38,626 nt of DNA from an uncultured Bacilli bacterium (GTDB lineage: Bacteria > Bacillota_I > Bacilli_A > RF39 > UBA660). The notes beneath the pieces were generated by a model, which was given only the letters and a program-made list of their open reading frames with translations, ran no database searches and had not been told where the DNA came from. The position numbers and the translations under genes are program-made. The stretch lies in NCBI GenBank assembly GCA_944363675.1, contig CALVUT010000040.1, positions 1 to 38,626 of the forward strand, given 5' to 3'. Positions 28,000-38,626 of the stretch are shown here, in pieces (position 1 is the stretch's first letter; every line of letters starts with the position of its first letter).

Positions 28000-28309
28000 T
28001 GGCAGTAGTCTAGATAATATGACTATACAAGAATGCTGGGAATTTCCTTTGGCTAATTGGGATGGATTGTGTTCGGCTCATTGGATGCCTTATTCGACTT
28101 GGACTATCACTCCTTCGTCAAGCAATTCGACTGCTGTTTTTTCCAGTGGGGACAGTGGCCAATTGGACTCTATGAGGGTGAACTATTCTTCCATTTTTGG
28201 CTTTGGAGGCGGTATTGGGGCAACTCCTGTAGTTTATCTTTCTGCTAATGTAAGAATTGTTTCTGGAACAGGAACTGAAGATGATCCGTACATTTTATCT
28301 ATTGGGTAG
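27959..28309 (+). pseudogene. 3' remnant of a surface-protein gene split by the ICE
   Basis: The open frame from 27959 to TAG 28307-28309 encodes about 116 residues beginning LHIGAPSDYGYATDG. The SDYGYAT segment, the Cys/Trp-rich part (ECWEFPLANWDGLC, STWTITPSS) and the end VVYLSANVRIVSGTGTEDDPYIL match the C-terminal half of a surface-protein family common in RF39-like bacteria, as I recall it. The same PV(I/V)xLxA and GTxxxPY ending occurs in the protein downstream. The first ATG (28019) has no ribosome binding site, so expression is unlikely. The 5' half should be found beyond the left end of the ICE. Confidence 0.8.
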
Positions 28310-28394: not shown

Positions 28395-29122
28395 ATGAAA
28401 ATAAAATATTTTTAGGTATCTCTATTTTAATGATTTTAGGAAGTATTATAGCTATAGGAAATAGACCAGTTCATAATTTTATTGAATATGATGAGAATAC
28501 TACCTTAGCTTTATTTGATGAAAATGGCGAGAAGATTGACAAAGTTCCTTCTAAAGATAGTGGATACACATTAGATACGGAAAGATCTGGTTGTTCGAAT
28601 GGAAGCATTTCTTGGGATGCTGAATTCTGGAGTCCTATTGTTACTGTAAATAGTGAAGTAAATGGCAGAGTAAGTTGTATTCTATATTTTAAAGAGATAA
28701 CTGCTTATGATAAGTGTATTATGGAATATGGGAGTGATTCGGCGCAATGTAATATTTTAGCTGATTTAGATGAAGAAGTTTGTCCAACAGTAGATGAGAA
28801 TGGCAACGTTTTAGTAAGTTCTGCTGAAAGTGAAAATGGTTATTTATGTAGTGTGCCAGATGATTATGGCACAAGTTATTATTACCGAGGAAATGTTACA
28901 AATACTAAATACTATCTATATACAGGATATAATTACTGGGCTATGACACCAGCTAGTTATGTAAATGGTAATGCGATTGCTCGTTACATTGATGCTAGCG
29001 GTTTTGGAAGTAACTATGATGAAGTCTATGAATCATATGGTATTAAACCTGTCATAAATCTAAAAGCAAATAGTCTAAAATCTGGCGATGGAACAATGGA
29101 AAATCCATACAGTATACTTTAG
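28395..29122 (+). pseudogene. Frameshifted, shortened surface protein of the same family
   Basis: AGGAGG (28374-28379) precedes ATG 28395, which opens MKIKYF and then hits TAG at 28413. One more T in the T5 run at 28409-28413 would join it to the long frame FLGISILMILGSIIAIGN, a good membrane anchor. The long frame has no ATG/GTG/TTG until 28430. Family motifs follow: SKDSGYTLDT, CSNGSISWD, CILYFKE, DDYGTSYYYRGNVTN, YWAMTPASY, KPVINLKA, and GDGTMENPYSIL. The stretch usually found between RGNVTN and the YYLYTG region seems missing, so the protein is also internally shortened. It could be a true pseudogene, a slippage-controlled gene, or carry a sequencing error. A terminator follows. Confidence 0.7.
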
Positions 29123-37446: not shown

Positions 37447-38007
37447 ATGAATATCAATATAAATGATATCAAAAACGGGATGACCATTATTATAGATGGC
37501 AATCTTTGTCAAATTCTAGAATTCCAACATGTTAAACCAGGAAAAGGTAGTGCGTTTGTTCGAATTAAACTAAAAAATCTACGAACTGGCGCAGTCGTTG
37601 AAAATTCTTATAATACGAATATTAAAATTGAAAGAGCTAGAGTAGAACATAATCCTATGCAATTTTTATATGCAGATGGCAATAATTATGTCTTCATGAA
37701 TACCGAAACTTATGATCAAGTAGAAGTTCCTGCTGAGAAGTTAGAAAATGAAAAACGTTTCTTAAAAGAAGGTCTTGAAATTAAATTGGATTATTATGAA
37801 GGCGAATTATTAGGCGTAACTTTGCCAGAAAAAATTGAATTTGAAGTAATTGAAACAGAACCTGCTGTCAAAGGAAATACAACCAATAATGCAATGAAAG
37901 ATGCTACGATTGAAACAGGTTATACGGTAAAAGTTCCATTATTCATTAATCAAGGAGAAAAAATTATTATCTCGACAAGTGATGGAAAATATTCTAGCAG
38001 AGCTTAG
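37447..38007 (+). CDS. efp: Translation elongation factor P
   Basis: A 186-residue EF-P. The exposed loop HVKPGKGSAFVR carries Lys33, the conserved residue that is modified in many bacteria. The first domain is KOW-like, and the following two OB domains end with GYTVKVPLFINQGEKI and DGKYSSRA, the standard finish. EF-P relieves ribosome stalling at consecutive prolines. The ribosome binding site GTGAGGAG follows rpmG, so it shares that transcript. A terminator follows at once. Whether a lysine-modifying enzyme exists is not shown here. Confidence 0.95.
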   Translation: MNININDIKNGMTIIIDGNLCQILEFQHVKPGKGSAFVRIKLKNLRTGAVVENSYNTNIKIERARVEHNPMQFLYADGNNYVFMNTETYDQVEVPAEKLENEKRFLKEGLEIKLDYYEGELLGVTLPEKIEFEVIETEPAVKGNTTNNAMKDATIETGYTVKVPLFINQGEKIIISTSDGKYSSRA

Positions 38008-38011
38008 GAAA

Positions 38012-38036
38012 ACAGATAAAAAATATCTGTTTTTTT
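38012..38036 (+). terminator. Rho-independent terminator after efp
   Basis: ACAGATA (38012-38018), loop AAAAA, TATCTGT (38024-38030), then TTTTTT. Confidence 0.9.
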
Positions 38037-38045
38037 ATCCAAAAA

Positions 38046-38077
38046 TTGACAACGGGGGGGGGGTATCCATGTATAAT
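38046..38077 (+). promoter_or_regulatory. Promoter with G10 tract in the spacer, likely phase-variable
   Basis: A consensus -35 TTGACA (38046-38051) and a consensus -10 TATAAT (38072-38077) are 20 bases apart. The spacer contains ten consecutive G (38054-38063). Removing three G would give the optimal spacing of 17. The terminator just upstream means that this is the only obvious promoter for the surface protein at 38109. Confidence 0.75.
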
Positions 38078-38108
38078 TATTATAGGAATATTGAAGGAGT
38101 AAAATAAG

Positions 38109-38626
38109 ATGAATGAATTTGGAAAACGCAAAACAATTTTAATAATAATAGCAAGTTTAATTGTTATAGTATTCTTTTTAGGCGTGTCTTATGCTTTGTG
38201 GGTAGCTAATTTTAGTCAAACGAATGAAAATTTAGTTTCAGCTTCATGTTTCCAAATTGAGTTTAGAGAAGATACCCAAAGTATTTCTTTACAAAATACT
38301 TTTCCTATAACTGATGAAGATGGAAAAAAATTGACGCCTTATACGTTTACGATCACTAACACTTGTGAAGCGTATGCTTCGTACCAAGTGAATCTGGAAG
38401 TATTAAACACATCTACTTTAACTCATTATGAATATGTTAAGGTTGCTTTAGAAGATGATATTTCTTTACTATCCGATAATGATACTATTAAAACAACTTT
38501 AGATAATGCCTCAACATCTTTTAAACTTACAACTGGTTACCTAGATCACAATGAAAGTGTGACCTATAACTTAAGGTTATGGATTGATGAAAATGTTACT
38601 TTAGAAAGTGAAGGTATATTAAATAC
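38109..38626 (+). CDS. Anchored or secreted surface protein, N-terminal part (runs off window)
   Basis: 172 residues are visible. GAAGGAGT (38093-38100) precedes ATG 38109. A basic start and hydrophobic segment (ILIIIASLIVIVFFLGVSYALW) are followed by SQTNENLVSASCFQIEF. The FxxTNxN-like pattern after the helix recalls SipW-dependent signal peptides of the TasA/camelysin type, but this is a loose match. The rest looks like a beta-sandwich with TPYTFTITNTCEAYASYQVNLEVL. It has its own promoter with a G10 spacer, so expression may switch. Function unknown; surface exposure is inferred. Confidence 0.8.
   Translation, partial: MNEFGKRKTILIIIASLIVIVFFLGVSYALWVANFSQTNENLVSASCFQIEFREDTQSISLQNTFPITDEDGKKLTPYTFTITNTCEAYASYQVNLEVLNTSTLTHYEYVKVALEDDISLLSDNDTIKTTLDNASTSFKLTTGYLDHNESVTYNLRLWIDENVTLESEGILN

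Follow-up and report, generated by a model that had tools for sequence, protein, structure and literature searches.

What is a run of ten guanines doing between the -35 and -10 boxes of a promoter, in a stretch of DNA with a G content of 17.6%? The window analysed here, 38,626 nucleotides that form one contig (C40) of the 1.34-Mb, 102-contig genome of an uncultured Bacilli bacterium of the RF39 lineage (G000 in the following), carries such a promoter close to its end, and the initial annotation had read it as a phase-variable switch of a surface-protein gene. The question is therefore whether the tract alters expression by changing its length, or whether it is a constant part of the promoter.

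The promoter and its surroundings

Read directly from the sequence, the promoter spans positions 38046-38077 and has the form TTGACA-AC-G10-TATCCATG-TATAAT with a spacer of 20 bases, which confirms the boxes and the spacing as annotated. It is preceded by the efp gene (37447-38007), and the terminator that had been placed just before the promoter probably corresponds to a hairpin followed by Ts; it is missing from the consensus terminator scan because that scan requires at least three G-C pairs. The expected transcription start lies 3' of the G tract, which would thus remain outside the transcript, and the start codon at 38109 is 45 bp from the end of the tract. The features discussed below are as follows:

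28430-29122, + strand: paralogous gene remnant with a disrupted 5' end, 80% nucleotide identity to locus L039 of the sister species CALVQE
38008-38036, + strand: probable intrinsic terminator of efp, 11-bp AT-rich stem and then a T run, RNA fold -9.4 kcal/mol
38046-38051, + strand: -35 hexamer TTGACA, consensus, identical at 7 other copies in the genome
38052-38053, + strand: AC between the -35 hexamer and the G tract
38054-38063, + strand: G10 tract within the promoter spacer; every run of at least eight Gs in the genome is G10 in the same context
38064-38071, + strand: TATCCATG between G10 and the -10 hexamer
38072-38077, + strand: -10 hexamer TATAAT, consensus, at spacer 20
38084, + strand: expected transcription start, 7 nt past the -10 hexamer, inferred from the position of the latter
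38094-38099, + strand: Shine-Dalgarno sequence AAGGAG
38109-38624, + strand: surface-protein gene, 172 aa seen, truncated by the contig end, with an N-terminal signal or transmembrane segment ending SYALW

Copies in the genome and across the family

In the whole of G000, all eight runs of at least eight Gs are exactly G10 and lie 2 bp past TTGACA, while a reversed-pattern control gave 0 matches. The G-tract promoter element is real and specific, and the earlier judgement that G10 is unlikely by chance at such a G content holds. TATAAT follows at spacing 20 in seven of the eight, so that the same promoter, for which the initial annotation had suggested looking, stands before paralogues elsewhere in the genome (seven complete copies including that of the window), the genes being scattered over many contigs. 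The eighth copy (C64:119-128; loci L026 and L232) reads TTGACAAC-G10 and has no -10 box; the sequence 3' of its tract is unlike that of every other copy, perhaps as the result of an insertion at the tract.

Relatives were sampled with one genome per species, as draft MAGs. The pattern TTGACA-N0-6 followed by at least eight Gs occurs in 44 of 291 genomes of the same family, across which the reversed pattern is nearly absent (control near 0), and in eight family genomes a TTGAC hexamer precedes 132 of the 154 runs of at least eight Gs. Copy-rich genomes hold 8-40 G-tract copies each, with 34 in G015 (of the window's genus, counted at a minimum of seven Gs) and 40 in G118. The flanks are genus-specific, for example TTGACAACTCTC-G10-TGT-TACAAT, TTGACGT-G9-TAGTTT-TATAAT and TTGACA-G8-TCATATTA-TATAAT. 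The sister species, about 18% diverged from that of the window (CALVQE01, an uncultured Bacilli MAG), has six promoters with exactly this G10 form according to a contig scan whose query was exactly G10, other tract lengths being detectable there just near fetched loci. In other families of the class a strict match was obtained in five of about 300 genomes. Isolated G9-G11 tracts that touch TATAAT or lie close to it were also seen in families f21 and f16 of this class (L241-L243, L245), before lipoprotein-like genes in some cases and before regulators in others, and could possibly have arisen independently. A phage origin of the element was rejected, as a scan of viral contigs gave just 5 matches with mixed downstream genes. 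In the literature searched, phase variation is not reported for RF39 or similar gut Bacilli.

Most copies of G000 and CALVQE and some of G015 carry a dyad, CATCATAG-N4/5-CTATGGTG, just past the -10 box and spanning the expected start (L001, L003, L004, L006, L007, L039, L043, L045); this dyad is possibly an operator. It was also considered as a hairpin sequestering the ribosome-binding site and rejected in that role: it folds well just if wholly transcribed, 4 bp being left from the expected start, and the window copy is without it. At one CALVQE locus (L038:4741-4869, CALVQE010000011.1) the sequence that follows a G10 promoter opens, at the start codon, with GTGTGCC and resembles a group II intron 5' end, as if such an intron had been inserted into the ATG.

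Genes behind the G-tract promoters

The N-terminus of the window protein is 39-48% identical to those of G-tract genes of CALVQE, G015, G114 and G066, and the 172 aa seen gave no Pfam match. The product had been described as an anchored surface protein; the N-terminal hydrophobic segment is indeed present, but nothing beyond it speaks for anchoring, and since the gene is truncated by the contig end the word "anchored" can refer to this segment only. The seven genes after complete G000 promoters all encode a signal or membrane segment at the N-terminus, and there are several clear paralogues among them; several paralogues share promoter, 5'UTR and N-terminus. In the CALVQE genome and 18 family genomes, an N-terminal hydrophobic segment is encoded by 158 of the 173 genes downstream of a G-tract promoter, compared to 6/25 genes of the window and 23/54 other ORFs of the fetched loci. 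Among the named matches, signals of the SipW type occur most often (TIGR04088 in 19 of 150), BsaA and TasA models were also matched, and one G015 protein has DUF285 repeats. The best explanation of these predicted features is that the G-tract promoters drive paralogous, putatively exported surface proteins.

No TTGACA or G tract was found upstream of the remnant at 28430-29122. It has an apparent internal deletion and adjoins a C-terminal fragment of another gene (28019-28309), and both look like decayed members of one surface-protein family.

Spacing between the boxes

Ordinary TTGACA/TATAAT promoters have a spacing of 17-18 in 38 of 60 cases (18/29 in G000, 20/31 in G118), and the spacing of 20 therefore lies off the optimum of G000's own promoters, as the initial annotation implied. 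The 183 G-tract promoters have their modes at 16 (52 promoters) and 19-20 (70), with 32 at 17-18, the parsed spacing depending on which -10 is chosen. This distribution differs from the background (Fisher 1e-10, a value inflated by shared ancestry because paralogues are not independent), and a test per genome places the mode at 17-18 in one of 13 genomes (p 5e-5). Intact tracts of the genus group are at spacer 20 in 27 of 33 cases. Paralogues in G000 and G015 with a broken or absent tract have spacers of 18-19 in 6/6 cases and of 20 in 0/6, where two of the six (C99) may never have carried a tract and one of the spacings was confirmed separately. These spacings suggest a strong state at 17-19 with the intact tracts just outside it, and the data fit promoters set next to the optimum whose strength would change with slips of the tract. 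For G7 at spacing 17 as the ON state, which had been proposed initially, we find no specific support, the promoters with broken or absent tracts lying at 18-19.

In the parsed promoters the tract is offset by 0-7 bp from the -35 box and by 0-13 bp from the -10 box, with offsets from the -35 box of 0, 2 and 4 within G015; it slides within the promoter and thus behaves as spacer rather than as a fixed site. G015 has three flank types (0+10, 2+8 and 4+6), each with G10 and all with a total of 20, and this constant total is the best argument for 20 itself being selected. A TGn motif precedes the -10 box in 44 of 88 long-spacer promoters versus 3 of 80 short ones, clustered by genome, and would give long-spacer promoters basal activity. 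A-form compression of the G tract, considered as an account of spacer 20 that would apply generally, was dropped, as other genera sit at 16.

Variation in tract length

In relatives, promoters of the same genome with an identical non-G spacer differ in the number of Gs alone in 38 of 124 pairs. Three tandem copies in G135 have G9, G10 and G11, an orthologous locus differs between two species of genus g153 (G9 and G10), and the 20 fetched G015 tracts include three of G9 and one of G11. The parsed promoters have tracts of 7 to 13 Gs, and G305 provides the extremes with 22 (C4:117, L152) and 18 (C151:104, L154); both of these follow TTGACAAAT near contig ends and greatly exceed the tracts elsewhere. 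The differences between relatives' paralogues are of a kind that fits slippage. In the window species and the sister species, on the other hand, every tract is G10 (8/8 and 6/6, 14/14 in total), including both members of two orthologous pairs (L002/L042, 3059 bp at 82% identity, and L006/L037), and at a locus common to G074 and G208 G8 is kept at 94% identity. Such retention at orthologous loci argues for a set point. Differences in tract length are thus seen among copies in relatives and not in the window species or its sister; an invariant G10 in relatives, named in the initial annotation as evidence against switching, was found in this pair of species but not across the family.

MutS is present above the cut-off in 28 of 30 family genomes including G000. 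Defective mismatch repair was therefore rejected as an explanation of the variation, and in a lineage that is not repair-deficient the tracts may slip slowly. An unusual share of the G-tract loci is located within a few hundred bases of a contig end (G015, G208, G272 and others), and the end of contig C47 of G015 falls inside a tract. These ends are probably caused by the repeated promoter and signal sequences, length or structural polymorphism being a possible cause as well. Since N-terminal repeats shared between the genes account for the contig breaks, these were no longer taken to prove that tract length is polymorphic.

Proposed mechanism and alternatives

The explanation that we consider probable, with clear reservations, is a poly-G rheostat of spacer length of the porA/tp0126 type, set off the optimum and operating at the scale of a regulon. 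In a single multi-copy promoter type, the G tract makes up some of the spacer that separates the consensus -35 and -10 boxes, and slippage would shift spacer length by single bases. The common setting lies just off the 17-18 optimum, at G10 and spacer 20 in the window's genus and at G8-9 and about 16 in others, and is for this reason proposed to give low or basal transcription, with the extended -10 (TGn) helping in part of the long-spacer promoters. Rare contractions in the long class or expansions in the short class would then raise transcription, with low output expected at spacing 20 and higher output at 17-19, and tract length would probably tune the expression of each gene. Slippage together with the off-optimum setting would make these rheostat-like candidate phase-variable promoters, used as a set; we infer that such slippage takes place in living populations, with heterogeneity of the cell surface as the likely benefit.

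The uniform G10 of two species weighs against the rheostat, since freely switching tracts should differ more, as does the total of 20 held within the genus across three flank types, which would be odd were 20 merely OFF; moreover, one half of the long-spacer promoters carry TGn, which could keep them active independently of the -35 box, though it is clustered by genome. The same observations, along with the two orthologous pairs and the recurrence of G10 at spacer 20 in G066 and G275, at related members of the gene family, favour a promoter class of fixed length, possible if on balance unlikely, in which G10 and spacer 20 would be the working setting of the window's genus and under selection. 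The tract would here provide a special spacer geometry (or an activator would correct the spacing), the extended -10 would complete the promoter, and length changes in other genera would be drift. However, these genera sit at 16 and hence on the opposite side of 17-18, so that no common geometry applies, the relatives with broken or absent tracts are at 18-19, G9 and G11 occur among the G015 tracts, and the tract slides within the spacer. We regard as rather unlikely a non-switching architecture in which selection keeps the spacer at 20 while the tract moves within it, and in which tract geometry, combined with either an activator or an extended -10, turns a nearly dead spacing into the working state of a whole surface-protein regulon.

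That one tract type is common to many promoters of one functional class, at 8-40 copies per genome, could also be understood if it were the putative binding site of a dedicated regulator of a surface-protein regulon, with incidental length variation. This is very unlikely, as the distances of the tract to the -35 and -10 boxes are unconserved even inside one genome, the flanks are wholly different between genera, and lengths vary over the range given above. Least probable of all is a relic of cassette duplication (promoter plus signal sequence) with no regulatory role: the shared promoter, 5'UTR and N-terminus of several G000 paralogues and the clustering of contig ends near the loci would agree with it, but independent flank types are found in at least 15 genera with the tract always between both boxes, G000 has no run of at least eight Gs elsewhere, and poly-G is mutable, so that a useless tract would decay.

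If switching is real, these promoters would form one of the larger sets of contingency loci known at the promoter level, with as many as about 40 in a 1-Mb genome, and their carriers would be a large family of uncultured Bacilli not known as pathogens. If the length is fixed, these promoters would work with a spacer that exceeds the norm by three bases, and the standard rule on spacing would come into question.

Comparison with known systems

The vlp genes of Mycoplasma hyorhinis, to which the locus had been compared initially, are reportedly a few clustered paralogous surface-protein genes with a poly-A tract in the promoter spacer. The promoters described here are similar in that paralogous surface-protein genes have a homopolymer in this position, whereas the tract is poly-G and the genes lie on many contigs, unlike the clustered lipoprotein genes of vlp; the poly-G systems porA and tp0126 are thus the more apt comparison. 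Two features of these systems, a homopolymer between the boxes and a predicted exported product (from the hydrophobic N-termini counted above), are found here. In Neisseria meningitidis porA, a poly-G tract lies between the -35 and -10 boxes, as in our promoters, and one base strongly changes transcription (PMC3899988; also PMC7864442), but porA is one gene, without a fixed off-optimum setting across paralogues, where we find dozens. In Treponema pallidum, tp0126 has poly-G between the boxes and is expressed best at spacing 17, and together with tprE/G/J/L it exemplifies poly-G promoters at several surface-protein genes of one genome (PMC7864442). The tprL tract, which adjoins the start site, ranges in vivo from 7 to 11 Gs, and a reporter gave higher expression with G8 than with G10 (PMC7864442). 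The likeness to tp0126 lies in the poly-G spacer and in the several surface-protein promoters of one genome; T. pallidum belongs to another phylum, its proteins are unrelated and its copies far fewer, and the window species differs in that all its tracts are G10 and its complete promoters have spacer 20. What sets the present promoters apart from porA and tp0126 is their scale, their lineage, the use of one promoter form for many scattered paralogues and the uniform off-optimum setting.
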